Source: Roridomyces roridus
Lineage: Eukaryota; Basidiomycota; Agaricomycetes; Agaricales; Mycenaceae
Assembly (NCBI GenBank): GCA_029378245.1
Contig: JARKIF010000015.1
Span: 1,054,001-1,118,000, forward strand
Direction: 5' to 3'
DNA: 64,000 nucleotides
A program made the translations under genes and the position numbers. This document shows, piece after piece, positions 7,364-50,038 of the stretch (within the stretch, counting starts at the first letter, position 1; each line of letters starts with the position of its first letter). Below the pieces are notes generated by a model, which searched no databases, was not told where the DNA came from, and saw only the letters and a program-made list of their open reading frames with translations.

Positions 7364-7506
7364 GAGTGGACGGGAAGAGAATGCCGCTCGATCACAGCCT
7401 CGATAGACATAGCCGTCGTGGGATTGACGCGACAGCTTTCTTCTGATATGATTCCTTGTCATGGCACCCACTCGCAAACGTCTTGACGGTTAGAACGGTG
7501 GACAGT

Positions 7507-7751
7507 TGTTGGAATTAGTGCCTCGGGCAATCCGCCAGTCTGAGTAAGCCTCTGAGTAAGCTTGATATTTATGAGTCGAACTGACTCCAATTATGACTCC
7601 GTACTGACTCACAAGGCTGTACACCCAGTAGTATAAATGAGCCTGTATTCTGTACGCTAGGCTAACCAACTTATTTGAACACAACTACTATCTGCGTGAA
7701 TTCGGACGTCTCACCACGTCCAGTTACTTCCTCAATACATCTGCGCCAACA
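7507..7751 (+). repeat. 5' LTR of copia copy 1
   Basis: Direct repeat of 245 bp matching 12728-12972 with one T/C difference. It holds a TATA-like box (TATAAAT, 7632-7638) that probably starts the genomic RNA. Confidence 0.95.
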
Positions 7752-7766
7752 GGTTATGGGCCCCGG
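7752..7766 (+). promoter_or_regulatory. Primer-binding site, half-tRNA type
   Basis: The sequence GGTTATGGGCCCCGG immediately follows the 5' LTR. It is complementary to the anticodon stem-loop (CAU) of an initiator tRNA-Met rather than to its 3' end, the arrangement known for Drosophila copia, which is primed by a tRNA half-molecule. The second copia element has the same site at 43950. Confidence 0.75.
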
Positions 7767-7887
7767 CCTTTAACTATATTCACGCAGACACACTTGAGAA
7801 CTCGAACTCAAATTTAAACACATACACCGGAGATCTCTCTACGCCCTCTACTAGTAGTTTATCTCTATCCATTTTGTTACTGAATCT

Positions 7888-9060: not shown

Positions 9061-9552
9061 ATTAAGGTTCACCAGGGGTAGAGGTCTACCTCCGAAGGTC
9101 AGAGGTAAGGTCGACAGAGGTAGAGGTGGAGGTACGAACTAGCTGAAACCTCCCGACCTTTGACAGACCTTTGGAGGTTCAGAGGTACAGCAAGGTTTGG
9201 TTCAAACTGTTCAGAAATAGACTCGGAGACACTTTTTGGACCAGAACAGTTTTTTCTTGATGGCGATCAAATTTTGATCTGTGTTGATGATGATCACATT
9301 TGTCAAGAAATCATGACTCTGGTGGTCAAATTGAGCTGGTATAACATTGTAGGGCCAAGAAGATGAGTTTGGGTTCACAATTTTCAAAGTTCTGACTGAT
9401 TTTATGTGCCATCATGTCTTTTATCAGAAATTGATGGCACATCAGAGGTCCAGAGGTAAGGTAGAGGTCAACCTCTGAAGGGTCAGAGGTTTCGGAGGTA
9501 AGGGTAGAGGTAGGGCCACTCGTACCTCTACCTCTACCCCTGGTGAACCTTA
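9059..9552. mobile_element. Short inverted-repeat element inserted in copia copy 1
   Basis: The insert has terminal inverted repeats (TAAGGTTCACCAGGGGTAG at 9063; its complement ends at 9552) and is flanked by direct repeats of 8-9 bp ((A)CCTATTCT at 9050-9058 and 9552-9560). Many AGAGGT/ACCTCT subterminal repeats lie at both ends. There is no transposase, so it is non-autonomous. The duplication length and subterminal repeats fit hAT; a 9-bp reading would also fit Mutator-like elements. Four extra bases (GAAT) precede the left inverted repeat. Confidence 0.85.
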
Positions 9553-12500
9553 CCTATTCTCGGTCTCCCGCGCTGATGACGCCGGAGGCAGTTCAAATTT
9601 CAAGAACGGAAAGGTTGAAATTCTGGATAAAACTGGAGCTGTTGCACTCCAGGGGCATAAGCGACACAGACTTTACTGGCTCGACGTGAAAGCGAAGCCC
9701 GTAAACCAGGCAAATGTTGCCGAGTCAAATGACTCGAATTCCTGGCAATCCTGGCACAAGCGCTATGGACATGTGTCTAACTCGACATTGGAGTTGCTTG
9801 TCAAGAAGGGAGGTGTGGATGGACTCACCATTGATCCCGACAGCACTCCACTTGGCCAGTGTGAAACTTGTATCAAGTCCAAGATGCATCGCAAACCTTT
9901 CCCCAAGAAATCCTCCAATCGGTCCGAACAGCGTGGTGATGGTACTCACAGCGACCTCTGGGGTCCGGCTCGTACAAAGTCAACTGAGGGGAATTATTAT
10001 TATATCTCCTTCACCGACGACAAGACTCACCGAATCACAATTCTGTTTTTGAAGTCAAAAGACGAAGCAAAGCAGAAGGTTATCAACCATATCGAGTGGT
10101 TGGAACGGCAGTTCAACTGCAAACCTAAATGGATTCGTGTGGACGAAGGCCGTGAGTTCGTGAATGCGGAATTAAAAGCAGTGCTTGCCAAGAAAGGCAT
10201 CGAGATTCAAACCACTGCTCCGTACTCACAGTCACAGAATGGCGTGGCAGAACGCCTGAATCGGACACTCGTGGAATTGGCAAGAGCCATGCTGGAGGAG
10301 AGGAATCTTCCAAAGAGCCTGTGGGAATTAGCAGTCGTCCACGCTGCATATATTCGGAATCGGTCACCAACGAAAGCGTTACCGGAAGGGTTGACGCCCC
10401 ACGAGGCTTTTACAGGCGAAAAACCCAACGTTGCTCACTTTCAAGAATTTGGAACGGACGTCTGGATCTATCAAGAGCTCAAGAAAAACGGGAAACTGTT
10501 CGGGCATGCCAACAAATTTATCTTCGTGGGATACGAAGACGGCCCTCACGCTGTTCGCTATTATGATACGAAAACTCACAGGGTCAAAATATCGCGAAAC
10601 TTCACGTTCACGGAGCCGGATAAACCGATTACAGAGTTGAAATACTTTGAAGTTGATTCGGACGAACGGCAGCTTGAGGGGGAGTCATCGGGGAAGGGCA
10701 AACTGCCATCTCCGCAAACTTCAAAGCAACCTGGCACGAAGACGAAACCGAAACCACCCAACCCGGCCACCATACCCCTTCCTGCATCATCAGAATCGGA
10801 ATCCGACAATGAAGACAATGCTAACTCACCTGTCCCACTGCAAACGGCAGCACCATCGACCCCCGCTCGCACAGTTAAACCGGCTCCATCCAATACCAAG
10901 CTCGAGACTGTCTATGATAGCAGTCCCAATCGTCTCAACAACATCCCGCTGCGTAGATTGACACGTACCGTTGTCGATCACAACTACCGGCAGCTGGGGA
11001 ATCCAGATTCGCGTATGGGAAAAGCCCCGCGCACAAGTCGAGACGATAATTCAGCTTCCGAAGCGGTCGCTGATGCTGAAGAGGAGTCAATTGAACACGG
11101 AGCGCACTATGCACATCAAGCATCAGTGGGGGAAGTTACAACTGGAATCGACATACCCCGAAGTGTGCGCGAAGCGCGAGAGTCGCCGAAATGGCCTGAA
11201 TGGGAAAGTGCGATCAACACCGAACTCGGCACGTTGAGTCGCATGGGTACCTGGGAGCTCGAAGATTGCCCCAAGGACCGCAAGCCCGTTGGATTTAAAT
11301 GGGTATTTGACTTGAAAACCGACCAGAAAGGTCAGATCGTCAAGTACAAGGCCAGACTCGTCGCGAAGGGATACTCACAGATCCCCGGCATGGATTACTT
11401 CGACACCTTTTCTCCCGTCGTACGCCTTGAGTCCCTCAGAGCGCTATTAGCCGTCGCCGCTATCGAAGATTTAGAGATGAAGCAACTTGATGTCAAAGGA
11501 GCTTACCTCAATGGCGATCTCTCCGAGGAAATATATATGGCTCAGCCGCCAGGCTACGAAGACGGATCTGGCCGCGTCTGCCGACTCAAAAAGACGCTAT
11601 ATGGCCTCAAGCAGTCAGGCCGCGAATGGAATCGCAAACTGCACACCCTACTCACCAACCTAGGCTTCGAACGAATTGAAGTCGACCACGGCGTCTATAT
11701 GCGACGATTCAAGGATAAATTCATCGTCATTACCGTATGGGTAGACGACTTGCTGCTCTTCAGCAATAACCCAACGATGCTCAGTGCCGTGGAGACCGCG
11801 TTGAAGCAGGAAGTAGAGATCAACGACATCGGGGAACCTAAGAAATTAATCGGCATCGAAATCTACCGTGACAGACAAGCACGCACCATCCAGATCTCCC
11901 AAGAACATTATATCGACGGGATTTTGAAGCGCTTCGGGTACGAGAACATGTCCCCAGTCACCACGCCGATGGACCCCAACGTCGTACTCGAGAAATTCGA
12001 GAAATCCGGACAGACGACGGATGAGCGAGGCCGCAGCTACGCCGAGCACATGGGATCGTTGATCTGGCCAGCCACGATAAGTCGCCCAGATATCGCATTC
12101 GCAGTTGCGAGACTTGGCGCGTATGCCGCTAACCCTGGCCCAGCACACTGGACGGCGATGAAGAGAGTCTTCCGCTACTTGAAAGGGACGCGTCACCTGC
12201 GAATCACTTACGGCCCGATCACCGGCACGGCCACACCTGTCATGACGACACACGGAGCGTTTAGCGACGCCGACTTTGCTTCCAACCCCGACGACCGAAA
12301 GTCAGTATCGGGACATGTTTACATGCTCGGAGGAGGACCCATCGCATGGCACTCCAAGAAACAACCGACCGTTGCACTCAGCACCGCCGAAGCAGAATAT
12401 TCGGCTCTCACCGCTGCAACTCGACAAGCAATCTGGCTTCGTTATTTGTTCCAAGAACTCGGAATCGGAGGAAACGACCAACCTACCCTCATATACTCCG

Positions 12501-12739
12501 ACAATCAATCCGCCATTACTATTGCGCACGATCCGCGACATCACGCTCGCTCGAAACACTTCGATATCGAGAATCATTTTATTCGCGAGAAGGTTGAACG
12601 CGGAATCGTATACATTGAATATTGCCCCACTGCAGATATGCTTGCAGATATTTTCACGAAGGCTTTTCCTCGTATCAAGCATGGAAGTTCACGCAGGAAA
12701 TGGGACTACTGGCGGCTTGAGGGGGAGTGTTGGAATTAG
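9553..12739 (+). CDS. Copia pol: integrase, reverse transcriptase, RNase H (5' end cut off by insertion)
   Basis: An open frame of over 1,000 residues continuous with gag once the insert at 9059-9552 is ignored; no ATG is near its 5' end. In order: GAG-pre-integrase zinc region (SWHKRYGH ... CETCIKSK, about 9745-9880); integrase core with the second Asp in RVDEGREF and the Glu in NGVAERLNRT (9950-10300); a proline/serine-rich linker; reverse transcriptase with QLDVKGAYLNG and VWVDDLLLF (11290-11760); RNase H with SDADFASN, STAEAEYSAL and YSDNQSA (12255-12560). All catalytic residues I can see are present, so only the nested insertion clearly breaks this copy. The reverse-transcriptase box reads VDD preceded by W, not the common YVDD. 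Confidence 0.93.
12719..12727 (+). promoter_or_regulatory. Polypurine tract of copia copy 1
   Basis: GAGGGGGAG abuts the 3' LTR, the expected position for priming of plus-strand DNA. Confidence 0.8.
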
Positions 12740-12972
12740 TGCCTCGGGCAATCCGCCAGTCTGAGTAAGCCTCTGAGTAAGCTTGATATTCATGAGTCGA
12801 ACTGACTCCAATTATGACTCCGTACTGACTCACAAGGCTGTACACCCAGTAGTATAAATGAGCCTGTATTCTGTACGCTAGGCTAACCAACTTATTTGAA
12901 CACAACTACTATCTGCGTGAATTCGGACGTCTCACCACGTCCAGTTACTTCCTCAATACATCTGCGCCAACA
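12728..12972 (+). repeat. 3' LTR of copia copy 1
   Basis: Partner of 7507-7751. It directly follows the purine tract GAGGGGGAG and is followed by the target duplication ACAGT. Confidence 0.95.
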
Positions 12973-13334: not shown

Positions 13335-13430
13335 ACACGCATAGTGAAACGGTATCATGCTTGCCATCCATCCATCGCCTTCTCTTTGCCTTTGAAGCAA
13401 GCGGCAGGGGTTCGACTCCCCTTGCGTGTA
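13335..13430 (+). tRNA. tRNA-like gene with an intron, probably tRNA-Gly(TCC); position 33 atypical
   Basis: A complete cloverleaf can be drawn. The acceptor stem is ACACGCA/TGCGTGT (13335-13341 with 13423-13429) with discriminator A. The D arm is GTGA/TCAT with GG in the loop. The anticodon stem is CTTGC/GCAAG (13360-13364 with 13397-13401). The T arm is AGGGG-TTCGACT-CCCCT (13406-13422). A 25-nt intron (13371-13395) placed after position 37 leaves the loop CATCCA plus A, anticodon TCC (Gly). The D arm also resembles glycine tRNAs. The oddity is A instead of U at position 33; a different splice choice (loop CTTTGAA) would read TTG (Gln). It may be functional or a recent pseudogene. Confidence 0.6.
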
Positions 13431-13630
13431 TTGCAATTTGTTCGCTGGCCGTGCTTTTGCTTCAAAGTCAAACCGACCGTGACTCGTGCTTTGACTTCGA
13501 AGATCGGGCACCACAGGTGCTTGGTCACGGTGGAGCCTGTGAACGATTTTGATTCTAGAAGTCCAATTCCACGAGGGCTTGGCGAGGGCTTCCCGGACGA
13601 CCGAATCATGCCCGACTACACTTGATGAAA

Positions 13631-29234: not shown

Positions 29235-30669
29235 GTATGGCACATATACTGTAAAATAATTATTCAAACTCATTTGGATCGCATGTGCATGGGATAGCCT
29301 GGTTTTGGATCGCAACTCCAGGTTGGTAGACGTTTGGGTTGCATAATAGGGTTGTTCAAGCTACTTGCTGTTTGAACTTCCTCCTCCAAGGTCAAATCTG
29401 GTGTGGTCATCTGGGAGTGAGTACGTCCGGAATCCCGGCTTGAGTGATCAAGTACAGTTCCAATCAGAATTGATGATTGCACAATAGTTCATCAGTGTGC
29501 GGTAGTGTACAAATTCTTGACAAATTCAATACTCCAGCTGTGCAGAAATTCTTCTCTTGAAGTTCTCAGTAGACACTTGAATGAATCAAATCTACTCCTG
29601 AAATGCCATTGTATGGCACATATACTGTGCAAAAATTCATGGCACATACATCTCACTTGGTTGCATAGTTTTCGGTTGCAACTGACATGTTGGATGCACA
29701 AAAGCTTACAACTTTGTGATGTGGGTTACATGTGTGATGAGCAAGCTTGCAACACCATCTAGGATTCTTTCACCGTGAATTGAACACATGTTTGGACTTG
29801 GTCGTGGAGAAATTGTCGAGGTTTGATGAAACTGATTTGAACATTGAAGATCCTTCGTTGCCGAGCTCCAGAAATGGAAGTTGACGATCATTCACTCAAA
29901 TCTGAACATTAGAATGCCTCTGGGGATACCTTCAAGGTCAAACAGCGAACAGAGCAGTAGTTCGAATGCTATGGGTCATGTTTGAGACTCTCTTCCATCT
30001 CCTGCTTCTGTGACCTCCATGGCGGGGTACATACAGAAAGTGGAACTCCCTGGGCAATCCTCGCGGTCCGGGTAGGTGAGTTGACTGTCGAAATTGACCA
30101 CAGAACGTACTGGGAGTGCCCGTACACTTCCGGTCATAATCCGGCTGTCCAACGACAATGTTCATAATTCTCCTAGCGGCGCCGAGTAGCCGGATTGATG
30201 CGGGATCATACGACATCTTTGATGCGCTTGGCAGAGATGCGAGCCAACCGTAACATGTGGCTGAAACATTGAGATGCGAGCACATCGAAACATGCAAACC
30301 AAACTCCCGAAACAGATGTAAGTTGCCTGCTAAAACCCTGTAAAATTGAGCTAATTTTTGCACAGTATATCGCCCATACCATTGCCCACCCATGAGGAGC
30401 AAGGCAGGCAAACGGGGCCTTTTCTCCCATCCAAGTGGGGTGATGGCCAATCAAGGTTGATTGCCCGTCGTATGCTCGGCAGAACGGCAGTCATTCACTA
30501 GAAATAGAAATACCTTGTTTGAAATGCATCAAATACTCCTCGGATGCTCTCCAAGAAACCAGCCTCAAGATGTTACCCAAAAGACTTGATTGCAATTGAG
30601 TTGTGCCCCAGAACTGTTCCTCCAAGCAGATGCTTCCGCAACAATTATTTTACAGTATATCGCCCATAC
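29235..30669. mobile_element. Outer inverted-repeat element (1,435 bp)
   Basis: The left end is GTATGGCACATATACTGT and the right end is the complement of GTATGGGCGATATACTGT. A 4-bp duplication ATTT flanks it (29231-29234 and 30670-30673). No transposase is seen. It sits inside the duplicated F-box tail and itself contains a second element of the same family. Confidence 0.8.
29611..30379. mobile_element. Inner element of the same family (769 bp), nested
   Basis: It carries the same two ends as the outer element (left GTATGGCACATATACTGT, right GTATGGGCGATATACTGT), in the same orientation, and is flanked by CATT (29607-29610 and 30380-30383). The interior is related to but diverged from the outer element. 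The consistent left/right asymmetry shows a defined family. Confidence 0.8.
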
Positions 30670-33209: not shown

Positions 33210-35159
33210 ATGTCCTCAAAGTCCGAGCTTCTGGCGCTGCCGGTTTCATCTCGCCGCCGGCCACCACAATCCACCTTCGCCGGGATTACAGTCGTTCTTC
33301 TCTCATCCTTGGTTATCGTGTCTTGGCTGCGGTCTTTTTACCCACCGATCGCCATACATTCTCCGCGCTCTTTCTACCACCGAGTTCACAAACCAGAGGG
33401 TATATGCGGCAACTCTTCCGCCGTATCGTATGCTGGACACATAGGTCTCCATGGCGACACGGAGGAGAGCCCCAAGCGCTCGTTTTTCTGGTACGCGTAC
33501 AAGTGGCCTCTCCGCCCGTCTCATACGTTCCCAGGTATTTCGAGGCAGAGGAGAACCCAGAGGATGCACCCGTCATCTTGACTATCGGCGGTGGTCCCGG
33601 AACCAGCGGAATGATGAATGCTCTGCAGGGACAATCGCCTTGCTCTGCCAATGAGCACGGACTCGCTGCCAATCCGTACACTTGGACCAAGAGACACAAC
33701 CTCATTGCGTTGGATCATGTCCGTAGCACTTTCTCGCAAATAACCAAATCTCACGTTCCGCAGCCCATCGGCGTCGGCTTCTCCTACGGGACGCATGTTA
33801 ACAATAGCAGGAGTGCGGCATACGATGTCTATGATTTCTTGCAAAAGTTCTTTGTTCTCTTCCCGCATCTCGCGAGGTAGGTTTCATCTTCCCCCGAGGG
33901 CTTTCACTCAGCATCTAGAAACAAATTCATCATATCCGGCGGATCGTACGGAGGCGTGTACGTCCCCAATATCGCCACCGTCATCCACGAACAAAACCTG
34001 CTGCTCAAAGCCGGAAGAGGTCAGCCGGGTGCCATTCCTATCAACCTCGACGCGCTCATTATCAGCAATCCATTCACCGTGCGTCGCCTCCATCATTTAT
34101 TTGCGCCGAACTTTGAGTCGAGTCACAGAGTCCTGCATCGCACTTCCGCTGGCTGCTCCAATACCGCTGCATGGATCACCATATCCACAACGAAACGGAG
34201 TGCACACGATTGTATTCCGCGCTCCCGACGTGCCTCGATAGCATCGAGTTGGCGTTAGCGGTCCCGAGCGTGCCGAACCGCGTCAATGCCACACACCTTT
34301 GCTACGGCGGCCTTAACTCGGCTGATTTCCACGGAATTGTTCCTGAGGACATCCGACGCACGGTACAAGCACTTGTTAAAGACTGACCAATGCTAACAAA
34401 CCAACGCAGTGTGTCCCGGAAGACAAAAACGACCCGGTGGCGTGCCATCCTCGATTCCGTTGGTTCAGTGAAATATTCAGCGATCCGACCGTTCGCAACG
34501 AGCTCGGCGTCCCCGAAAATTTGAACTTTACCGGACTCAATATGGAGGTTAACCAAGAGTTTCAAGCCGCCGGCGATATGTGCGTCGTTATGTTGGCGAA
34601 TATGCAACAATTCTCATTGTTCGATAATAGGATCCAGGCCCACCATCTCATGTACCCGCCCCTGCTTTCTGCGGGGATTCGTCTCCTCCGTACGTCTCTT
34701 ATTCTCCAATGCTTGTCATATCTGACTTGCTTGCGTAGATTACATCGGGAAACAAGACGCCAATTGCCCGTGGCTCGGAACTCTCTCCTTCGTACGTCTC
34801 TCCTTTCTCCTTTCAAAATTCCCTGTCCGCCTCACAGAGGGCTCACAGCTGAAACTCCTCGAAACGCCCTTCCAACAAGCCTTCCTCGAAGCGCCCGATG
34901 TCGCGTGGCCGCCGAATTCGCGGGACGTCGGGACCGTGCGCGCAGTGGGCCCCGGGGCGGGTAACTTTACGTTGATTTTGTTGGAGGAGGCTGGGCATTT
35001 TGTGCCCTTTCGGTTGCAGTTTCAGTGTTTTGATCGTATTTTCCGTAGACTGTTGCGGATCAACCGGCTTTGGCGCAGAGGATTGTGGAGACGTGGATTC
35101 CTAACGAAACAGTATTCACAAGTTACAATAATAGTACTGAAGAATGTTCAATATGTTAG
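33210..35159 (+). CDS. Serine carboxypeptidase-like protein (peptidase family S10)
   Basis: Nine exons join in frame (33210-33490, 33535-33718, 33764-33876, 33919-34078, 34129-34362, 34410-34689, 34739-34791, 34849-35001, 35049-35159), 522 residues. A hydrophobic segment near residues 22-40 (FAGITVVLLSSLVIVSWL) follows a basic N-terminus: a signal anchor, so probably secretory-route or membrane-tethered. S10 landmarks: GGGPGTSG (oxyanion region), DHPIGVGFSYG, nucleophile Ser in ISGGSYGGVYVP, Asp in GKQDANCPWLG, His in EEAGHF. The triad is complete. Unusual: GGSYGG replaces GESYGG, and GGGPGTSG replaces NGGPGCSS. In yeast carboxypeptidase Y those Glu and Asn residues help bind the substrate's C-terminal carboxylate, so specificity may be altered. 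Its stop lies only 15 bp from that of the convergent gene at 35175. Confidence 0.88.
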
Positions 35160-35174
35160 AACATGAGCCCTGCG

Positions 35175-36409
35175 TCAAAATGACTGTGGCTCGCTGGCAT
35201 GTGAATGATTAGAGACCCCAGTCACTCCCATAGAGTTTGGGCCCTGGCTTGTGCTCTGCACACCGCGCATACGGAGAGTGGAAATTGGGCTCTGCCATGT
35301 CTCATCCGGACGAGCAAGACCATAACTGACACGTGCCACAATCAGGGTCGGTGCAATTCCCTGGTATTGTTGATCAATGCGCCAGGTAAGTACAAATGGG
35401 AAAGCGAGTTCACCGTGATCTGGGTCACAACTGCCTCGGCATAACCATCACTGAAGTCAGCAGTACTGACTAGCCATGCGAGGAATATGGCCATTGCCAC
35501 AGAGTACAATAGTGCTGATTCCACAACAATCTCGATTACCCGAGTGTACCCTCTGGCCTTCCTGGTGTTGCCATCACTCATTGTAATTATGCGGACCACA
35601 ATGAGGAGCGTGGCAAGGCATGTTGTCGCCAAGGAGAGGGAGAAATATGGGGTTGCAAAGTCAACGAAGGCATCATGGTCGAGATTAGGGTTAATGATGT
35701 ATGCTGCTTGTTCCTGGATGCTTTTGAATCCCAGGGCTAGAAGTTTTTGTGTCAGCCCTGTAATGTTGGATGCTCATAGGCAAATCACCTGCACCAGACA
35801 AAGTACACATAATGGGAAGTGCTACAACCACCCAGTTTTGATTCCATATGATCCAATAGCGCCAAATCTTTGAATATTCTCCAGTAAGCAAATCTCTTAT
35901 ATAAAAATCATCCTCACTCACCAGTACAAAATCCGCAAGTAGTGTATTCACTGTGAGTACTACTGCTGGCAGGACGGCCAGCCAGAGGGGTGGTTGCAAA
36001 AGGTAGACTGAGATAGTGACAGCAGTGGCGCCATTGTTAATGAATGCATTCCGGGTGACGATCCAACGACAGATCATATGCATGGTGGCAAGCATGTACA
36101 TCATCACCAACACAAAAAAGAGACCTGGGTTGCTGCGATGTATGCCTCTTCTGAACACTGAATACACATTTAATGTGATCAATATTGAGTGTGGAGTCCG
36201 TTATGAGGCTCACCCATCCCATGTAGTGTCACAAAGAACAGGCCGGTATAGAACCCTGGCGCATTCAGATGAGGCACTGAATGAACGAACATTCTAACAA
36301 TATTCATACCGTTCATGTACAGCTCGATAAAAGTTTCCTGGAGGTAGGGTGCACGGGTCTCAGTCAGAGTGAATTCCAACATTCCGACAGGCAGGTTGGA
36401 GGTAAGCAA
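35175..36409 (-). CDS. Multi-pass membrane protein of an agaric-type family, function unknown
   Basis: Five or so exons on the minus strand. Exon 1 from the ATG at 36409 includes FYTGLFFVTLHGMG. The next, after an intron from about 36196 to 36141, starts VFRRGIHRSNPGLFFVLVMM and contains two or three hydrophobic segments (MYMLATMHM, LLQPPLWLAVLPAVVLTV). Then IWRYWIIWNQNWVVVALPIM, an exon with FATPYFSLSLATTCLATLLI and VESALLYSVAMAIFLAWLV, and a last exon GIAPTLIVARVSYGLARPDE with a hydrophilic tail to the stop at 35175. Six to seven membrane helices are predicted by eye. The WRYWIIWNQNW and GIAPTLIVARV signatures recur in uncharacterised integral membrane proteins of Agaricomycetes. It diverges from the UstYa-like gene at 37228 across an 0.8-kb interval. 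Confidence 0.78.
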
Positions 36410-37227
36410 TAGGGATAGATGGATACAGTGGATGGAGCTGCCATGTCTTGAAAAGAGGATGACTGGTATGGATGGGAAGAGAATCGTCCACTTGCGGCTA
36501 TAGATGATACTAGATTCTGATTATCCCATGATTCCGGAAGTACTTATTTGCAGTCGCTGAAGGCCAGCATGGGTACCTCATCCAATCATTTACTATCTCA
36601 TCCCGCTGATTTTGTCCAATATAAAAAAAGGCTGTGGGGAAGGGCGGACAGCCCTTCTTTGCCTCAATGGGAGTTCTTCAAGCATGGCAACGACTCAGGT
36701 TACCACAGGAGTTCTTTTTGATATATACTGAATCAAAATAACTGTAAGGTGTGTCTGATTGCTAGGCATAAGCACGGGTAGCCAATACCCGCGCGGGTAC
36801 GGATAGCCACGCGGGTACGGGTAGCCACGCGGGTACGGGTAGCCACGCGGGTACGGGTAGCCATCACGGCTACCTGTGACAAACATTTCGGCTGTGGCAG
36901 CCTTTGCTAGTGCTCAAAGCTGTTCCAACAGATGAAAATGCTAAACCAAACTGGTATGAAAATTTTCTGACCATCGCCAGGCTGGGAAAGCCTACCAGCG
37001 GGTACACAGCCACCGCGGGTACGGGTACGGGTAGACTCCGGGATACCCATTTACCCGATCTGTCAGAAGTTTGAACGTAGATTCCGTGCCATACCATGGG
37101 AAGTTCATGATCATTCTTGTCTGTTGTTCCACAAAAGATATAAGATCCTGATGTGAGCCATTTAGATTTAGATAGGGTCGTAGGAGTATTAACCCCCCCC
37201 TCACTCTCTCTCTACTCAACCACAATC
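36410..37227. other. Divergent intergenic region with GTACCC-type repeats
   Basis: Shared 5' flank of the membrane-protein and UstYa-like genes. Contains the minisatellite at 36792 and a second cluster of GGGTACGGGTA motifs near 37012-37035. Otherwise nothing recognised. Confidence 0.5.
36792..36863 (+). repeat. 18-bp minisatellite, four copies
   Basis: Four head-to-tail copies of CGCGGGTACGGGTAGCCA; the first has one base changed. Confidence 0.92.
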
Positions 37228-38085
37228 ATGGCTCCAAAGGGAGACTCCCAGGCAAAGCTCTACCCGGGACGGCCACCCCGCCTTTTGTACGCCACTTGCA
37301 TGCTCTCAGTCATCATTAACTTGGCTGCGTTTTGGCTTTTGACTGGACCTCGGATTCAGCCCAATGATTTTGCAGAATTGGAAATGCCATACCTTTACTG
37401 TGAGCACAATGTGTTTCAAACCTATGAGATCTCCACTGAGAGGGTTCCCTGTAGCCCCAGCCCAACACGCTGTTCGTCAAATTGTAGTCAAGTTCACTCG
37501 TGGCTTAGCAGACGATATTCCAATCTATGAACGCCATCCATCCACAGAAGTCGATGAGGCCTGGCGCAGCCTGTATTCCGGTGAGATAAATCTTCCTGCA
37601 CCTCGTGCAACACTGTATCTGATGAAAATTCCCTAGTTGCTGAGAACAAAATCTCGGAAGCGGAGGCTGTCAAGATGCCCAATCATACCTGGCCGCTTTA
37701 CCGGATGCCAGGAAACTACATGATTGCACTTGATGTCTTTCATCAACTCCATTGCTTGGTAAGGTGCCACATCATTCGCACTTTGAAGTTGTTCTCACCT
37801 TCTCAGGACATGCTGCGTCAACGGATTCACCACAGCTCCAATTACAACTATACTTGGGTACCCATCAGCCATCTCAGACATTGCATTGGGGCCATCCGAC
37901 AAGCACTTATGTGTGCCTCAGATATCAGCACGGTGGTATTTCAGTGGTCGGAGCAGCAGCAGATAGCAGAGCAGAGGGATGATGTGCTGCACATGTGTCG
38001 AGATTTTGAACAAATTCGGGGATGGGCAGCCGAGCATCAGTTTGTGGCCCAGGAAGATGATTTCAACGCTGTGCACCGGCATTAG
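37228..38085 (+). CDS. UstYa-like (DUF3328) protein
   Basis: Four exons join in frame: 37228-37399, 37455-37580, 37637-37758, 37807-38085; 232 residues. An N-terminal membrane anchor (LLYATCMLSVIINLAAFWLL, about 22-41) is followed by a luminal domain with the two hallmark metal-binding motifs HQLHC (about residue 136) and HLRHC (about residue 164, in HLRHCIGAIRQALMC). Upstream the segment YSPAQHAV and the EVDEAWRSLY motif are also typical. Family members such as UstYa/UstYb of the ustiloxin pathway oxidatively cyclise or crosslink ribosomal peptides (dikaritins) or act on other fungal metabolites. It is followed 1.5 kb downstream, on the same strand, by a small secreted protein with a repeated module. 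Family assignment firm; the substrate is inference. Confidence 0.9.
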
Positions 38086-38859
38086 ATACAATATCAGAAG
38101 ACCTTTTGTCTATGTCAAGTCTGCATCTCTTAAACTTTCCCATCCAATCTATGTAGTAGCAGTGTAGCACAGACAACAGAATTGCAATGGAATAGTGTTT
38201 GCGGATAATCAGAACAGACAGAGAATCTGGAAGGAGGCTGAGGGCACCATCAGCCGGAAACGGAAAAGCATGTACCTTGAATGTACACGGAGATGTCTTT
38301 CCTGTACTGGGGATGCTGTTCTGGTCTATCCGACAACACCATCATGCGGCTATGGATCAAGATCATGATTTGATAGGAACACTTGGCAGGAGCTCATACA
38401 TTCAGCCCCATAGAACCAAGAGGCACCAGATCAATTGATCCTTGACACTGATTGATCTACTCCTCCCTTCCTTTTTTAGGTGTAGCTCCGTGTGAAGTCC
38501 GTTAATTCCGTCTCTTGCCAACAAGTGTTGTCCGTTGTCCCTGCCTACTTTGTGCTCCCCAACTGCTCTGAACCCATTGACTTTGAGCTAAGACTGGCTC
38601 TATTTGCCCATCTCCGCCTCCCGCTTACCTTTTGGTGTTTTTTTCCATGACATCACGACCAACCGGAGCTATCAACATCGTGTCACGGATCACTTGATCT
38701 GCTGCCTCTTGCATAGATCGGGGCCATTGCTCTGCATGGCAATCAGAGTCGCCGAGTTGGGAGCGGAGTGGAGAGATTGGAAGGGCCTGTTTACCCGCTC
38801 AAATGTCACGGTGATGCGGGAGTGGCCACTGAGAACCCCCGAACTTGGTCAATCTGCCA
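38086..38859. other. Intergenic region
   Basis: 3' flank of the UstYa-like gene; no gene recognised. Confidence 0.4.
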
Positions 38860-39575
38860 AAGACCATGTGCTTCTTGATATAACCCTGGCATGCACATTG
38901 AATTATGATGGTTACAAAGGATTCAGTGCCGCTACTTCTCCCGTATTTTTGAGCTGTACGAAGGACTCATGATTAGTCGGTGTCTGTGTGAGTGAACTGG
39001 GGCAATTGCCAAATATACCCTGTCTAGGGCTGGACGCCGTGCCCGTCGCGCCGGTTGTACGGTTCCCGTCGACGGGTATTCCGACCCGTTCCGTGGACAG
39101 TTCACTTCTAATTTTGACAGCCGTCTCTGTCAAAAACGGCCGGCGCCGGGTCGACGGGGATCTAAAACAACACATATCTCGCTCAGGTTGAATCAGATTC
39201 TCTGATGCAACTCCATATGTTGCCAATGGACACCAGGCGGACATTTTTCAACCCCGACTTCGAGTCTGCGGAAAACTTTTTGATCACGAGGCGACGGCCG
39301 TCGAGCGACGGTCCGTGCCCGTTGTATCACCGTCAAAACGACGGTCGTGCCCGTGCCGGGCACGGCGAACAGCCCTAACCCTGTCCAGGTATTTACAGCT
39401 GCATACAAAATTGCAAATCTGCCAAAAACCATCTGCTTCTTGATATATTGTGATGGTTAAAAATGGTTCAGTACCCTACTTCTCCCATCAAGGATGCAGA
39501 AGTGCATTACAAAGGACTCAGCCGGTGTCTGTGTGAGTGAAATCCTGGTTCAATTGCCAAATATACCCTGCGGTC
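38860..39575 (+). repeat. Tandemly duplicated upstream segment
   Basis: About 150 bp near 38862-39020 recurs near 39428-39575 in the same orientation. Both copies have TGCTTCTTGATATA, a GTGTCTGTGTGAGTGAA stretch and CAATTGCCAAATATACCCTG. They lie just upstream of the small secreted-protein gene. The first copy holds the inserted element 39025-39377. Confidence 0.75.
39025..39377. mobile_element. Non-autonomous hAT-like element (353 bp)
   Basis: Inverted ends TAGGGCTGGACGCCGTGCCC and the complement of TAGGGCTGTTCGCCGTGCCC, with a perfect 8-bp duplication ACCCTGTC (39017-39024 and 39378-39385). GC-rich, no coding potential. Confidence 0.9.
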
Positions 39576-39630
39576 CAGGTATTTAAGGAGTCTAACAAGC
39601 TGGTTACGGTAAACCACCAAGACTGCTCTC

Positions 39631-40108
39631 ATGTTCAATTTGTATTTCATCTTGGCACTTGTTGCATTGTGCAGAGGGATTGGTACGATTCAACATGAAT
39701 CTGGCTTTGTCATGTTCCTAACCACCTCTCCTTGTGCATGGTCGGGCAGGTCACCCTGTCGCCGGTCTGTCTGCTAGCTCAAATGAGGCTGCAACTGTAC
39801 ACCAGGCAAGGACTGGTATTTTCTTTGCAAATTACACCGACACCGAGGAGTATGCTACTCTGTGTTCATCCTGCAACTTGGCCATCTCATAGCTTTCAGG
39901 GATAAAGAAGAGGCATCTAGTGCTAACATGGGTTCCGCAGAAATATCTGGCTCCGCTGTCCAGCGAGGAAGAGAGGGTGATGTCATTTACTTCACGCATT
40001 ACAAAGAGACCGAGGAGTATGTTTCATGTTTTACCCGGTCCACCTTCATTCACGCTAATTGTTTACTGCAGGGACAAAGAGGAGGCAGGAGATGTTGACA
40101 AGGAATGA
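39631..40108 (+). CDS. Small secreted protein with a duplicated exon module
   Basis: Four exons join in frame (39631-39682, 39750-39849, 39900-40016, 40072-40108) to give 101 residues. A signal peptide is evident (MFNLYFILALVALCRGIG). The mature part has two related modules, one with GIFFANYTDTEEDKEEAS (about 40-57) and one with DVIYFTHYKETEEDKEEAG (about 78-96). Each module is interrupted by an intron at the same place (ACCGAGGA before GTATG), so an exon plus intron was duplicated. Single arginines precede the modules (QAR, VQR); no Lys-Arg pair flanks them. The neighbourhood (UstYa-like gene, S10 peptidase) makes a ribosomal-peptide precursor an attractive reading; a plain secreted effector-like protein is the alternative. 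No homologue recognised. Confidence 0.7.
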
Positions 40109-41011: not shown

Positions 41012-43056
41012 AAGGACCATAGCCGCAAAAGCGCCGTTCCCCTACTCTGAGTCTGATGCAACTGATGATTCGGATCAGTTTACAATTTGACTTTACAGTT
41101 CGCCGATTTTATTCCAGATGCTGCACGTGGATTGTAATTTGGATTTGTGTGTAGCCTTTCATTTTTGTTCTTGTTTCATTCAACTGTGAATGACGAGGAG
41201 GAATGCGGATCCTGGCGGCAATCATCAGGGTTGACATAGGTGGGATGAGTCAGATGGACATATGTGGGAAATTGATGCAATGAGTTTTGCGGGAGATCAG
41301 AAAATTCAGCCCCACAGAACCCTCCTCTTGACAGAGTAGGGGAATCAAGTGGCATCCATCAAATGTAGATGATGTCATCCACAGAAGCCATGGCGGCGGT
41401 AACGGGGGTAGCACCGGGGTGTTGCGCACTGCGGGGCACCTAGGATACAATGGGGCCGGGCTCAGGGCACTCGCTCTGGAAATGGCCGAGTTTCTGGCAC
41501 TTGAAACAGGTGATGCGGGACCTGTCGCAGATCATACAGGTTGCCAGTGGAGGTGTAGCTGTACCATTACATAAACCAACCAGACAAGGAATGATGTTTT
41601 CCTTTAGGGCTGGAGGCACATGCGGTTTAAACCGTGGTTTAAACCGCAGCCAAGGTTGGCAACCTTGTGGTTACGAGAACTTACTTGCTAAGTTCTCGTT
41701 CTTTTAAAATTCAGTCAGGCCAGAATCCAGACAACTTTTTATACGGATTACAACTTTCGATGAGGGCGGCTGTGCTGTTTCCTTTTTGCGGCTACAATCA
41801 GTGATTTTGACAGCTGCCATCAGAGGTTTTTTCTTTTCTTTCCAGAGCATCCAATTTCCACTCAAATGACTTGGGATTCTGCGAGTACACTCTTGATAAC
41901 TGAACTTGAGTTTTGTTCCCCGGGGTGGAGGTCTCATGGCGAATATTGCTCATGATATCTCTGATCTACTTGTGCTTTGCGATCATTTCATTGTAAGTCA
42001 ACCAGAGCCCCTGGGTCCTTGAAATGTGGGCAGGCTTGAAGAAGTAGAGGTACCATTGCGTAGAACACCTTCGAGAAAACTTACAAAAAATATCTGCGGT
42101 CAATATAAGCCGAATTCTGTCATGGGTGTTTGCGCATCAACACTGGGTTCTTTGTCCTCACCGACTGGGGACTGAGATTCAATCCTGGGTATGCAGCTTT
42201 AGAGCACATTGAAACCCAAATCTCAGTCCAGAAGTGTCCATAGAGCTGGTAAAAACCCTGGATGCTGGAAAACATGGGTAATAGTACCGTGACGACCCCA
42301 CTTCCCAGAGTCACCAGGATTTCTGGCCTCTGAGTCCTTGGCTATTTTACCACATTGACATTCAAGATCTAGCTAGCTCTGGAATCCTGTTGACACAGAA
42401 AGTTCAACTCACGTCCCATGTTCAATGTTCTGATTCAAGCTGTGAGTTGAGGAGTAAGTAGGGCCTGGCCGTGTAAGGCGAAGTGATTACAGAAATGCAT
42501 CCACATACCCTTGCTTGAACTTGAGCTCCCAAGGGTAATGTTTGGTATTTTTGCTCAACTGCCGGTGGCATATCTGGTTTGAGAGAACATCAGTGTGATA
42601 TGTCACACCAGTCACATCACAGCGAGTCGGATTCTCTACACAGCCACAAATGTCACTGAATTCATGTGTCCACCTTCCACAACATTGTTCTTCATCCAAG
42701 TGCAATGCACACCAAATGCACACCCCAGTAAGTTCTCGTCCATGCCGTTGGAGAGGCTTGGAGCTCTCGAAAGGAAAGAACAGCCGGGGGAGGTGCGGCT
42801 GTGCAGAAAGAAGCTCGAGAAGCTCGAGAAGATGGAAATTGGGATCAAGATGGTTCGGATCAACTATGTACAAACATCCAAATGTGGCTACTGGCACAGC
42901 CACACCGTGCTTTGCAACGGCCCTTACCCCCAAGTTTAAACTTGAACCATGCTACAGTACCATCAATTGGGCCGTCCTGGACTTCCGGCCTCAAATCATC
43001 ACACAACCTTTGCTACCGCACCTGGCTCATTTACGACGGTCTCCTGGCATCTTCAA
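41012..43056. other. Two-kb interval without an intact gene
   Basis: Only a gag zinc-knuckle relic (41450-41530), a palindrome of GGTTTAAACC units near 41620-41650 and short unconvincing open frames were found. Confidence 0.45.
41450..41530 (-). pseudogene. Retroelement gag relic (CCHC zinc knuckle)
   Basis: The minus strand reads RITCFKCQKLGHFQSECPEP, a CX2CX4HX4C knuckle as in copia gag. It is followed by a stop and no pol is nearby, so it is a fragment. Confidence 0.65.
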
Positions 43057-43964: not shown

Positions 43965-44072
43965 AGCGCTACTGCTCTAAACAGACTCCCTGCAAGAAGA
44001 CTCACTCCTACGAGTATCGCCTCGTGCAACAATCAATCAACCCACGGCCATTGACAGATACAGATCACTATC

Positions 44073-46304
44073 ATGTCTTCTGAAACTCTTCAACTGTCTT
44101 CGGCTTCTGACTGGATGCCCTTCCGATTGGCTGTTCAAAATGAACTGCGCCGGGAAGGTGTTTTCACTATTCTGGAGAAAGTCATCACTGCTCCCTCTGG
44201 CGCAGATGCCTTGGTTTCTCTTGCAGCCTCCACTCCTATTCCTGGAACTCCTGGGTCTGTAGTTCCTCCCCATACAGGTCCTTTGCGTGATGCTCCAGAG
44301 GAACGCAACAGCCGGGCAGTTGGCATTATCAACAAATACCTAGCTCCAGAACTGCAGCTCGAATATATGGAGGAATCCTCTGCTGGTCTCCTCTGGGTCA
44401 CACTCCGCACACGTTTTGAGGAGGACAATCCCGCTGAAATGGCCATGTCCGTTCTTGCCCAGCTGTTTGGCACAAAATTTGTAGCTGAACAGGACAAGAC
44501 CCCAGAGAAGAAACAGATCGAGGATCATATCCGGATTGTCAAAGGCCACCTTGACCGGCTCCTCAGACTCAAATATCCCCTATCCCAGGATCTGCAGCCA
44601 CTTGTGTTGCTCAACACGTTCCCTGATCATATCTATTGGGCTGGCATCAGAGGAAACATTGTGTCCTCTCTGGGTACAGGAATCACTTGGGACAAAGTTC
44701 GCTCCCGGCTTATAGCCATTGGAGCTAATCCCACACCTGGTGAATCTGGGGATGAAGCTGCTCTGGCTTCAGCTGCCTCCAAGTCTGGCAAGGACAAAGT
44801 GGGCCGTGAGCGTAAAAAATTCTGTCTTCTCCATAAACAGAATGCTACACATACCACGGAGGAATGCCGGAGTATGATACAGATGGTACAGAATTCCAAG
44901 CAGAACCAAGCTCCATCTGCTAAAGGTCGCAAAGGTCGCAAAAATACTGCAAACCCAGCTGCATTGGACTCTGACTCTGAAGAGGAGGATCATGCTGATT
45001 TAGCTGTAGAATATTCTGTTTCTTCCAAATCCTATGCTGCTATGTCCGCTTATATCTCGTGGGACTCTGAGAAAGCTAAATATGTGATAATCATGGACTC
45101 TGGTGCATCCACCACTATGACACCTCACCTCGATTGGTTTGAAACTGGCACTTACAAGGTCTTGGATCCAACACGGCGCGTACGCTTGGGAGACAACTCA
45201 TTCTGTGACGCCATTGGCACTGGAATCATCAGATTATCTTGCAAAACCAAGGACGGAACCACTGATGTTTCGTTGAAAGCTTTGCATATTCCAACCTTTG
45301 GTTTAACTCTTGTCTCAGTCCCACGTATTGCCAGAAAAGGCTACAAGTGCATTTTTGAAGGTGATCAGTGCGTAGTTCGTGACACCAATCGCAGACGGAT
45401 GATTGAGGCTAAATATCAACGCGGCCTCTACCACATCTCGGCAGTAGCTCTGAGCTCAGACCCCAAAGCACTATTTGCCATGGACATCAACCATTTGCAT
45501 CGCATTACTGGACACACCAATTTCCAATACCTACAGAGGATGTACAGAAAGGGTCAACTGGGTGATATAACATCACTAACAGGATCACCCAAATTCTGTG
45601 AACCTTGTGCAGTTGGAAAAATGAAGAAATTGCCTTTCACAGATAGTAAATCCCAACCTCGTGGACCTCTTGACATTGTATCTTCAGATGTTGGTGGTCC
45701 AGTGACACCGGAAGGTCCTGGTGGTGCAAAATATTGGATAACAGTGACTGACCATTGGTCTCATTTTGTATGGGTCCTGTTTGCAAAGAAGAAATCTGGT
45801 GTCTACCGGCTGCTCAAGGAACTGCGAAAAGATCTTGAGAAGTTGTTCCATACTCACATTGGACACTGGGAGTTTTGCTCAGGTTGGACCAGATTTTTTC
45901 GCACTGATGGTGGTGGTGAATATACCTCTGGAGAAATGGAGCTTGAATTCAAGAAGCAAGGAATCATTCATGAGACAACTGCTCCATATACACCTGAGCA
46001 GGATGGTCTCGCTGAGCGGTTAAACTACACCATGGTGACCCGTGCAACTACCATGCTGATTGACTCTCACCTACCTCGCCGATTCTGGACATATGCTCTG
46101 AAGGCAGCTATCTATACTCTAAATAGAACACCAACTTCAGCGAGAGGTTACCGCATACCATATGAAATCCTATTTGATCGCCCAGCAGATATTCGCCACT
46201 TGCATGTTTTTGGGTGCAAAGCCTACCCCTGGATTCCAGAGGAAAAATGCCGGAAACAGAAATTTGGGGACAAAGCAAAGTACTGCATCTTCATTGGATA
46301 CTGA
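44073..46304 (+). pseudogene. Copia gag, protease and integrase (ends at an in-frame stop)
   Basis: 743-residue frame. Gag occupies about 1-280 and includes a CX2HX5HX4C knuckle (CLLHKQNATHTTEEC). The protease active site is MDSGASTTM near residue 345. The GAG-pre-integrase region has HRITGHTNF and CEPCAVGKMKK. The integrase core has SSDVGGP, RTDGGGEY and DGLAERLNYT. The frame stops at TGA after CIFIGY; a serine codon is expected in related elements, so this looks like a point mutation, followed at once by a deletion and shift into the frame of 46306-47723. Confidence 0.9.
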
Positions 46305-46305
46305 G

Positions 46306-47723
46306 AGCACAGCAAATCCTATGACTTACTCCAAGCATGTAAAGTTTGATGAGACTCCCTATGTGCCTCGGGAAATTCCTCAGGTCGAATCCCAAGTTAC
46401 ATCTCGAAAGGATTTCGAACAGGTTTCCCAAAACATCCGTAAAAGTGTCCGTCCTTACTACGATGAAGATGACGATGATGTGGTTCCTCAGACTACAGGA
46501 ACAACCCAGATTTCTGCAGGCATTCCAGGTTCAGTGGGGGGCAATTCAACGCCCACAGGCATACCAGATTCAGTGGGGGATCAAATTCCTACATCTGCAG
46601 CACCAGAAATATCCCATCCGTCAGACCATAATGTACCACCACTACGCAGGGTTGGAGGTGCTCGAACTGAGCCAACGCGCCGTTCAACACGCACTCATAC
46701 TCCTGCTGAACATCCAAATGCAGCTTATCAAAAGACTGCAACGGCTCAGCAAAGCCAAAGCAAGGCTCAAAGACAAGCTGAAATAGCTGATCGTAAAGCC
46801 AGGCAAGATGCACTCTCAGATGCAGAAAGCCAAACTCCCTCAGACGAAGATTCTCAAACCACTGAAGAAGCTATTCTACTGGCCAGTTGGGAAGATGTAA
46901 TCGCTGAAGCATATGCTACCCAGTCTGATCTTGATCCAAGCACCTGGCAAGAGGCAATGAATGGCCCAAATGCTGAACAGTGGATGGATGGACTCAGGGA
47001 AGAGTTAGCAGCTTTCGACGCAAATGATGTCTATGAAGTTGTACCCATTCCTGAAGGGGTCAAACCAATCAGATCCAAAGTTGTTCTAAAAGTCAAACCA
47101 GATGAAACTGGCAGCTACTCGCAACCACGCTACAAAGTTCGTATTGTTGCTAGAGGTGATACACAAAGAGAAGGAATTGACTACAAGGAAGTTTTCTCTC
47201 CAACCGCCAACCTTGAGTCAATCCGAATCATCTGTGCTCTTGCTGCCAAGTACAATCTTGAACTTGAACAAATGGATGTCTCCACTGCATATCTCAATGG
47301 TGAACTCAAAGAGGAAATCTTCATGCTACCTCCGAATTGTGTTGAAATTCCAGAAGGTCATTGCTGGCGCTTAAAACGGTCCCTCTATGGCTTGAGGCAA
47401 GCTAGGAGAACCTGGAACAGGACACTTGATGCAAAGCTCATGAAGTTGGGTTTCCACCGTCTCAACTCAGAGTCATGCCTCTATGTGTACAAGCATGGAA
47501 AACAGACATGCTTCCTGGTTGTCTATGTTGATGATTTATTACTCGCAACTACGTCTCCGCAGTTCTCCAAGAAAATCAAAGAAATGCTTGCTTCCAGCTT
47601 CAAGATGCGAGATCTTGGTCCTGCAAAATACCTTCTAGGAATTGAGATCATCCGTGACCGGAAAAAGCGAACCATATCCCTTAGCCAGCGTCAATACATT
47701 GACAAGGTCCTTGCCCGCTACGG
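46306..47723 (+). pseudogene. Copia linker and reverse transcriptase (5' part of RT-RH), in a shifted frame
   Basis: Continues pol in another frame from about 46306. A long acidic/serine-rich linker is followed by reverse transcriptase with EQMDVSTAYLNGELKEEIFM, SLYGLRQARRTWNRTL and VVYVDDLLLATTSP. Homology breaks off after YIDKVLARYG at 47723, where the insertion begins. Confidence 0.88.
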
Positions 47724-49214
47724 TGATGTATGTGCTCTAAACCTACTATAGAAATCAACCAACTCGAAACAACAAGACTAGATGAGTCTCGATACAGACG
47801 AATCTATATCTAAACAACCCAATCACGAAGCTCCGGGGCGAGTGACAACTATATTGACAGCAGGCAAAGGCGAGTATAAGTCCCTAGTACAGGGCCTTAT
47901 GAAAGGTTGTAGGGAATACTGTAATATTGTCTCGATATGAGTGGTCGAGTTTTGTATTGCGAATCAAGATCCTTGATATGAACCAAGAATGACAATTCTA
48001 AAGCGTTTTTGTAGATTTTAAGCTTCTCAGCTGAACACAAAAGATGTATAAAGGTTTGGCTAAAAGCCGGGTTGCACAAAGCAAGGTATTTGGGTCTCTC
48101 GATCCCTTTTACACTGGTATCCAAAGAACGCAGCGACCGATACTACATGGATTTCGTAGTCTCCAACAATTCCTGAACCAATTCCTGACACTGAACACAC
48201 AACCAGACCCTAACTGACACACAAACCGTACCAAGCCGTAGCAAGCCTTCCAAAGCTGCCACTGAGCTGAAACCCTAATCACAATCCAACTTGCACTCGA
48301 ACCAAACTATGCTTCAAACTCGATTCACACAACGGGAGCCAACAAAACAACAATTTAGATTTTCAAGGACGATTGCTTATTCTACGCAATGCACCTTCGA
48401 AAGCCTCGGACAAATCCCGTAGTCGCAGCTGGTAGCTTGCTAGTGGGGGAAGTATCCGCTGCCCTCTTGGGTAACACTCTATCTACTTTATACATGTCCG
48501 GGAATCATATGATAGTACAAACGAATGGCGCAATAATGATGAATCTCCCACGTATCCTGAATAGAAACGACCTGATTGGCTGATCTGGCACTGGTGCTCA
48601 GTCAGCCAGAGCGCCAAGCCATGATTCAGCATGTTATCTCGTGATTCCATCGCTGATCCATGACTCGCACAGTTTGGATATCTTGTATCCCTTCTTCCCC
48701 TCCAGAGTATGGCCTCAAAACGTACTCCCACGTGTTGTAGGTTTCGATCGATACCCATATCTCCCACTCTTGGTCTCGGATACCAGCAGATACTTGACCA
48801 AAAGTCCGTATCCAAGCCGGAATCCACTTGTTCCGACAGGTGATGGCTACTACGTCACTTCCATCGGACCCGTCTCGGCGGTCTGCTCATGTTTCAGGTC
48901 ATTCAGCCGAACCTCCGAATTGCACTTGCACCAAGGTTCGAACTGCTGACAATCGTACAACGGTTAAGAACTGTTTAATTGGTGTATCCCATTGGTAAGG
49001 CAGGTATCCACACCTCCTACATGTTTCGGAGTAAGTCCATCAGTCGTATCCAGGTAAATACCCTTCAACCTGTATAGTACTCTAAAGTATCCACCGTACT
49101 GACTGTCTCTGGGCTCGACATCAGCTCTCGTATTGAGATCATATAGTATGGAAACCACATCTGAAATCGTGCAAAATACGTGTTTTCAAGGGCAGTCAAA
49201 TTCCATGCTCATCA
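47724..49214. mobile_element. Insertion of about 1.5 kb inside copia copy 2
   Basis: The pol sequence is interrupted between LARYG and GMSDCKPVFTP. The insert starts TGATG and ends CATCA, a 5-bp inversion. It has no recognisable coding sequence and no exact target duplication (ACGG before, ATGG after). A degenerate solo LTR is possible; class unknown. Confidence 0.6.
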
Positions 49215-50038
49215 ATGGCATGTCTGATTGCAAACCAGTCTTTACTCCCATGGCAGTTGGATCCCACCTTACCACTGAAGACCCAGAGGATGACCAGGTC
49301 ATACCAGCGATGCAACTTGCAACTGGTGGACCAGAAGTCCAATATTCTGGTGTTGTTGGATCTACAATGTATGCCATGCGAGGGACAAGACCAGATATTG
49401 CACATACTGTTGGAGTACTTGGTCGTTACAGTGCAAATCCCAAGAAAAACCACTGGGCTGCAGCCAAACGACTGCTCCGATACTTGAAGGGCACTCGTGA
49501 CTGGGCCTTGCATTACAATGGTGCTGACATGGGCATGGATATGACTTTCTATGGATACAGTGATGCCGACTGGAATGGAGATAAAGATACCTCAAAATCA
49601 ACTTCAGGATATGTTTTCATCTCAAACAGTGGAGCAATTGGATGGTCAAGCCGCCGCCAGTCTGTGGTGGCTCTTTCCTCTACTGAGAGTGAATACATTG
49701 GGCTAGCAAATGCTGGACAACATCTAGCGTGGCTTCGTTCATTCTTTGAAGAGCTTGGTCAACCACAGAAAGACGCAACAGAGTTACGCTGTGACAACCG
49801 AGCCGCTATCATACTCTGCAATGAACCACAGTTCCGAGCACGGACTCAGCATATTCAGCGCAAATATCATTATGTGCGAGATGACCTGGTCCGACAAGGA
49901 GAGTGTGTAGTCTTATGGTATCCAACAGATGAGATGGTGGCAGATATATTCACAAAAGCTCTACCACATGAGAAACACATGAAGTTCTGTCTTGCTATGG
50001 GACTACGGCCTGGGTCGAGTGGGGGTGTCAATAAATGA
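49215..50038 (+). pseudogene. Copia RT tail and RNase H
   Basis: Resumes pol after the insertion: MSDCKPVFTPMAVGSHL, MRGTRPDIAHTVGVLGRYSA, then RNase H with YSDADWNGD, LSSTESEYIGL and LRCDNRAAI, and the terminal MVADIFTKALPHEKH. The frame is open to its natural stop just before the 3' LTR. Confidence 0.9.

Follow-up and report, generated by a model that had tools for sequence, protein, structure and literature searches.

In this report we focused on a group of four adjacent genes in the mushroom Roridomyces roridus, contained in a 64,000-nucleotide stretch of contig C57 (C57:1054001-1118000, hereafter the window) of an assembly of 90.8 Mb in 501 contigs. Many places in this assembly are present twice, as expected for two haplotypes, and contig C162 is the second haplotype of the window locus. 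The original prediction, made from the DNA letters, had described an S10-family protein (33210..35159, plus strand), a multi-pass membrane protein (35175..36382, minus strand), a UstYa (DUF3328) protein (37228..38085, plus strand) and a small secreted protein (39631..40108, plus strand), and had proposed that they form a ribosomal-peptide pathway analogous to the dikaritin pathways of other fungi. Our reading of the sequence confirmed all four genes at these positions, together with the principal features ascribed to them.

The small gene is the candidate precursor, and it is organized exactly as predicted. Its four exons (39631-39682, 39750-39849, 39900-40016 and 40072-40108, with GT-AG introns throughout) are open from ATG to stop when spliced and encode 101 residues, which match no Pfam family. 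The N terminus is hydrophobic with no early acidic residues, that is, a secretion-type start as judged by a simple hydropathy rule rather than by a dedicated signal-peptide predictor. The protein contains two related modules, IFFANYTDTEE/DKEEA (39818..39915, plus strand) and IYFTHYKETEE/DKEEA (39985..40087, plus strand), which are split by phase-2 introns (39850-39899 and 40017-40071, respectively) at an identical codon position, marked by the slash. Eleven of their 16 residues are equal (eight identical codons and three silent changes, against five residue changes), Tyr residues occupy position 46 in module 1 and positions 81 and 85 in module 2, and one N-glycosylation sequon lies within module 1. 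The introns that follow the two modules resemble each other no better than shuffled sequence (198 of 500 shuffles were as good). Since the modules have been conserved while the introns behind them drifted, the module exon would seem to have been duplicated long ago with its protein sequence retained. Moreover, both modules are placed at the end of an exon, before a phase-2 intron, an architecture observed in this genome that would let modules be gained by exon duplication.

The UstYa gene ends 1.5 kb upstream of the small gene, on the same strand, and its family membership is clear. Its four exons (37228-37399, 37461-37580, 37637-37758 and 37807-38085) encode a 230-residue protein with an N-terminal anchor that scores 125 bits against PF11807, for which the curated cut-off is 25, and that carries both predicted HxxHC motifs, HQLHC and HLRHC, intact. 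An alignment of 50 sequences, picked from 80 relatives after most partial and short-contig records had been left out, shows both motifs without variation in all 50. These 80 proteins, retained at E <= 0.001 from 157 candidates in a protein collection, are abundant in Mycena (45-70% identity across the aligned portion), with close relatives in M. venus, M. maculata, M. epipterygia, M. latifolia and M. capillaripes, and occur also in Armillaria, Moniliophthora, Cyathus and others, the closest being FB45DRAFT_838509 from R. roridus itself (99% identical). The AlphaFold2 model (mean predicted local distance difference test score, 84.9) includes the anchor helix and both HxxHC-bearing helices; among solved structures, we found nothing useful by sequence and no fold match at E <= 0.001. 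Within the genome, 28 exon-level matches to PF11807, grouped by contig pairing and score, amount to ~11 UstYa places per haploid genome, ten of which were examined for their neighbors (a broken match at C334:364k and a second gene near C57:1507k fall outside the ten). By tblastn, with introns read through, the closest to the window UstYa are C179:785k, C62, C201:552k, C201:532k and C179:760k (45-53% identity over the larger pieces), together with C334:831k (53-62% in three pieces), while the proteins at C101, C334:2126k and C334:2439k are distant (23-29%).

Another significant finding is that the pairing of a small modular protein with a UstYa gene recurs at related loci of this genome. The original prediction had put forward co-occurrence across basidiomycete genomes as a check, and within this one genome it supports the pairing. 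The UstYa genes on C179, C62 and C201 are preceded, on the same strand, by arrays of small genes whose leaders include MALKIMFPVLLVLVLLSGTQ and MVTKIVFPTIILVLLALGGVKG (in region-local coordinates, 11400-12918, minus strand, in L015 and L016, and 5910-7800 and 13335-13560, plus strand, in L033 and L034). Two array genes, A and B, have the endings FNADYEETDE/D and FAQDYGQSDE/D, with the intron placed as in the window modules. We scored 348,563 open 10-mers from both strands of ten regions for likeness to the two window modules. Gene A came first among the non-self matches (score 26), and the next, unrelated matches reached at most 22.5; when we considered just the 2,592 10-mers with a splice donor at the corresponding codon position, the five top non-self matches were A, B and their copies. 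That the best non-self match should lie beside another UstYa gene, with its donor at the same position, is on these sequence comparisons beyond what we would expect by chance. Nine of the ten regions had been selected because they hold UstYa, so this ranking is evidence for homology of the modules and not for their linkage to UstYa, which comes from whole-genome searches. For gene A, these searches return no places other than C179:788k, C201:555k and C62:6.8k, each adjoining UstYa (nine matches, the weaker ones being gene B within the same arrays), and the window small protein only on C57 and C162 (six matches). A DNA pattern combining module and donor gave 28 genome matches at up to two mismatches, compared with 12 for the reversed control: nine perfect, all in these genes, two with one mismatch, both on C357, and 17 with two. 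As this pattern was derived from the same genes, its results say no more than that additional close copies did not turn up. Small-protein relatives lying apart from UstYa, which would have spoken against the proposed pathway, were thus not encountered, either as gene A or as perfect matches to the pattern.

The arrays consist of small secreted genes with a leader, an NGGEI stretch and CPPCC, some of which are broken; one C62 copy has a shifted frame, and the C201:552k copy fuses the first part of A with the last part of B, a mix present on one haplotype. On C179, gene B allowed no clean second-intron model by eye, whereas the A/B mix on C201 reads better, and we used gene B as a module relative only. 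At the place C179:760k/C201:532k the small genes are all of the CPPCC type.

Precursor-like genes also accompany UstYa at other places. The gene divergent from the UstYa gene at C334:831k reads MKFLTALSILLSASMILAHPVGGTPK/DSLVSRGERDRGSFYWNHTDRGEHG/GVSKRDSRWPWHSPFWWNQ/PPGSDDSASNAVAKRAEHGTFWWHSEDAE, where slashes are GT-AG introns, and has two Lys-Arg sites and aromatic modules with phase-2 introns, some of them after Lys-Arg; it forms an array with genes at C334:824k and C334:828k that have related starts. Directly upstream of the UstYa gene at C101:902k is a Lys-Arg repeat precursor (~901.1-902.1k; L029 8072-9082) with the leader MFIKHTFLVLSAVLSVLAA and repeats KR-CFWNGG/GWYWC, in which an intron lies inside each core and part of the repeats are decayed, with stops. 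On C334, six AEEVDQGNNKWCSEEDGVDGVNCDWKR units with Lys-Arg sites make up an alpha-factor-like repeat precursor near the two UstYa exon matches at 2439k (~2437.4-2438.1k, minus strand; L031 ~7077-6450), and a secretion-type start is followed by ~12 FAIAEEEPRLEGRE units, with no Lys-Arg between them, near the two UstYa genes at 2126k (~2124.7-2125.3k, minus strand; L025 ~7341-6700). A further candidate precursor start, L032 at C334:2439k, was dropped because it resembles an aspartic protease. Overall, a secreted precursor-like gene stands beside seven of the ten examined UstYa places, or six of nine if the two C179/C201 places, which are ~25 kb apart, are merged.

The membrane protein, predicted to be a member of the cluster, does look linked to UstYa. 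It has 337 residues in our model and six hydrophobic segments in a simple hydropathy window, and matched no Pfam family and no PDB entry. Its family has 49 exon-level matches in the genome, which group into ten haploid places, and four of these are no more than 10 kb from a UstYa match on one haplotype or both: the window (0.8 kb), C334:832k (0.4 kb), C57:1500k (2.1 kb, a weak match) and C179:752k (7.3 kb, the C201 counterpart being ~20 kb away). Assuming 11 UstYa places in ~45.4 Mb, random placement would produce four of ten with a chance of ~1e-7, or 1e-5 when the window is left out, and 7e-4 when the weak match is left out as well. Since such genes may cluster for other reasons, we take this nearness as linkage only, which makes the membrane protein a likely partner in the unit.

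The S10 protein, which had been predicted to be part of the cluster, does not look like a member. As described, an N-terminal hydrophobic stretch is followed by an S10 domain (PF00450, with E 2e-29 when the first 192 residues are searched; the last exons were read by eye) with altered motifs, IGGGPGTS and GGSYGGVYVP. We take its catalytic triad to be in place, with Ser in GGSYGG, Asp in KQDANCPWLG and His in EAGHFVPF. We considered it as the processing peptidase of the unit and rejected it: 100 of 103 candidates were scored, and of the resulting 82 exon matches across the genome those of the window gene and its allele alone are near UstYa, the next being ~300 kb off, and relatives at C57:1147k, C57:1197k and C460 do not adjoin UstYa. 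Because its relatives lie away from UstYa, we leave it out of the unit, as probably a bystander. Two other classes of enzyme were sought as neighbors: condensation domains of nonribosomal peptide synthetases have five exon matches in the genome and tyrosinases 11, none of them on C57 or near any UstYa place.

Over 34.5-39.5 kb of the window, C57 and C162 differ by two mismatches only, so that the zero differences in the UstYa and small-protein coding sequences are uninformative on selection. Upstream of the small gene, a ~500-bp stretch (39022..39520, no strand assigned) is missing from C162; it contains a second, diverged version of the promoter region, the two like stretches being 565 bp apart within the window, together with what appears by eye to be a short inverted-repeat element. 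Elsewhere, C162 carries an additional ~5.1 kb at window 41576-41584, and a segment of ~765 bp at 29611-30376 is present in the window but not on C162. In both cases the joint shows a 9-base overlap; judged by these joints, both look like insertions with target duplications. Long open frames at 7858-12736 and 44055-50035 resemble, by eye, copia-type retrotransposons.

How are these observations best explained? We favor, with moderate confidence, the interpretation that the small protein is a ribosomal peptide precursor that is modified by the adjacent UstYa, and the best reading of the pair is as a dikaritin-like but noncanonical precursor and oxidase, in which each core ends an exon and dibasic sites are absent. 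The precursor, as predicted from its start, would enter the secretory pathway, where the membrane-anchored UstYa, going by its family, may oxidize or cross-link side chains of the aromatic, Tyr-containing modules. A protease with no dibasic requirement would then cut out or trim the modules, and the product would be secreted. Several lines of evidence count for this interpretation: the UstYa membership with intact HxxHC motifs, the module and intron position shared with genes beside related UstYa genes, the retention of the modules while the introns drifted, the Lys-Arg repeat precursors at C101 and C334:2439k and the aromatic modules at C334:831k, and the absence of condensation-domain and tyrosinase matches near the UstYa places. 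It is also in line with a survey across fungi which reports that DUF3328 genes peak adjoining repeat-precursor genes (PMC7329392).

Other results weigh against it. The weak points named in the original prediction stand, as there is no KK, KR, RK or RR in the 101 residues and there are only two modules to serve as core repeats. No relative was found among 35 candidates when the protein collection was searched with the small protein alone, or among 679 candidates with an alignment of five small proteins. In the module scoring, gene B is outside the 25 best matches once the donor condition is lifted, and several other array genes on C179 and C201 end after CPPCC and have no Tyr module, which counts against a simple Tyr-core reading. 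No precursor-like gene was seen in the 5-7 kb read at three of the ten UstYa places (C1:2513k, C57:1497k and C491:986k). A control scan for a secreted start plus a repeat, run over the ten regions with allelic copies left out, gave 14 rows (ten places) in the 80 kb within 4 kb of UstYa and also five rows (four places) in 121 kb farther off; at a repeat score of at least 60, three were near UstYa and none far. Several of the near places are Pro-rich frames or repeats flanking tandem genes, and the scan missed the C334:831k gene. The enrichment near UstYa is moderate, and the Lys-Arg arrays and the shared module weigh more.

Among the alternatives, we see a peptide-signaling locus as unlikely, if the least so. 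The secreted peptide, modified or not, would be a ligand and the membrane protein its receptor or exporter, in keeping with the presence of the membrane family near UstYa at four of its ten places and with the resemblance of some UstYa-linked precursors to alpha-factor-type repeats. However, the membrane protein has no recognized family or solved relative, its topology is a count from hydropathy, and a cluster of several membrane-family genes at C2:1964-1988k and C489:68-84k is on contigs with no UstYa match. Also unlikely, and slightly more so, is that we are dealing with a secreted effector, adhesin or defense peptide that UstYa does not modify and that shares with it only a fast-changing region. 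The small secreted genes in the arrays that have no Tyr module and the sequon in module 1 would suit such a protein, but not the recurrence of module and intron position beside related UstYa genes, nor the restriction of gene A to these places. We think it improbable that UstYa modifies some other compound, for instance a nonribosomal peptide, with the small gene being incidental: public names of UstYa relatives do mention cyclochlorotine biosynthesis, but the five condensation-domain matches in this genome all lie away from C57 and from UstYa. Finally, although the small protein has no record in the protein collection, its four properly spliced exons and secretion-type start, together with module relatives elsewhere that share its splice position, make a chance reading of spliced open frames very improbable.

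Returning to the interpretation of the pair as precursor and oxidase, the prediction of a dikaritin-analogous pathway is partly supported. The evidence favors the weaker form, in which the two genes would work like a dikaritin-type pair, as suggested by the recurrence of the pairing and by the Lys-Arg repeat precursors beside two other UstYa genes. The stronger form, that the locus is a dikaritin cluster in the strict sense, is not supported, because the precursor has no Kex2 site and only two modules and no tyrosinase match lies near any UstYa place. A bolder extension, which we regard as speculative and rather doubtful, is that mycenoid fungi have a three-gene unit, composed of UstYa, a fast-changing peptide with exon-end cores and the membrane protein, which would recur and would make and sense or export an oxidized peptide signal lacking Kex2 sites. 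If this is true, UstYa peptides have been undercounted in basidiomycetes, since such precursors escape both gene callers and repeat screens.

Comparison with known systems highlights important similarities and differences. In the dikaritin pathways (ustiloxin, phomopsin and asperipin-2a), as in the window, a secreted precursor with repeated Tyr units has an adjacent UstYa/DUF3328 gene (PMC9233826, PMC7329392), and DUF3328 proteins are reported there to be indispensable for cyclization of the ustiloxin, asperipin-2a and phomopsin cores (PMC7329392). Unlike these, the pair in the window is from a basidiomycete, has no Kex2 site and only two modules that each end an exon, and lacks a nearby match to the tyrosinase that belongs to clusters of the ustiloxin/phomopsin subtype. 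Among Agaricomycetes, Pleurotus ostreatus has members of the same family, 16 UstYa-like genes of which six are developmentally expressed, for which the accessible part of the report names no precursor (PMC8893723). As to Kex2-processed repeat proteins (KEPs), the general kind, a repeat precursor plus DUF3328, is already known, Basidiomycota included. By the figures of the 2020 survey, DUF3328 genes lie beside 1758 of 7878 KEPs (1647 of 5372 in Ascomycota and 103 of 1680 in Basidiomycota), and its text asks whether the basidiomycete core motif is different or cyclization is nearly absent there (PMC7329392); alpha-pheromone-like KEPs are likewise reported from Basidiomycota (PMC6339444). The C101 and C334:2439k genes fit the KEP description, and the window gene shares with KEPs that have DUF3328 neighbors the secretion-type start, the repeats and the nearby DUF3328 gene, but not the Kex2 sites that define KEPs in that survey (PMC7329392), which puts it beyond the reach of a KEP screen. 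A Kex2-free variant with two exon-end cores was not found in the open-licence literature that we searched. What is new is thus the combination of two exon-end cores, no Kex2 site and a recurrent membrane-protein neighbor, in a group with members that KEP screens tend to skip because precursors of this UstYa clade are small, intron-split and partly devoid of dibasic sites. The locus in R. roridus is a probable source of a small modified peptide of a kind that would escape standard searches, and the precursor-like neighbors at most of its UstYa places offer a direct route to asking what the substrates of basidiomycete UstYa enzymes are.

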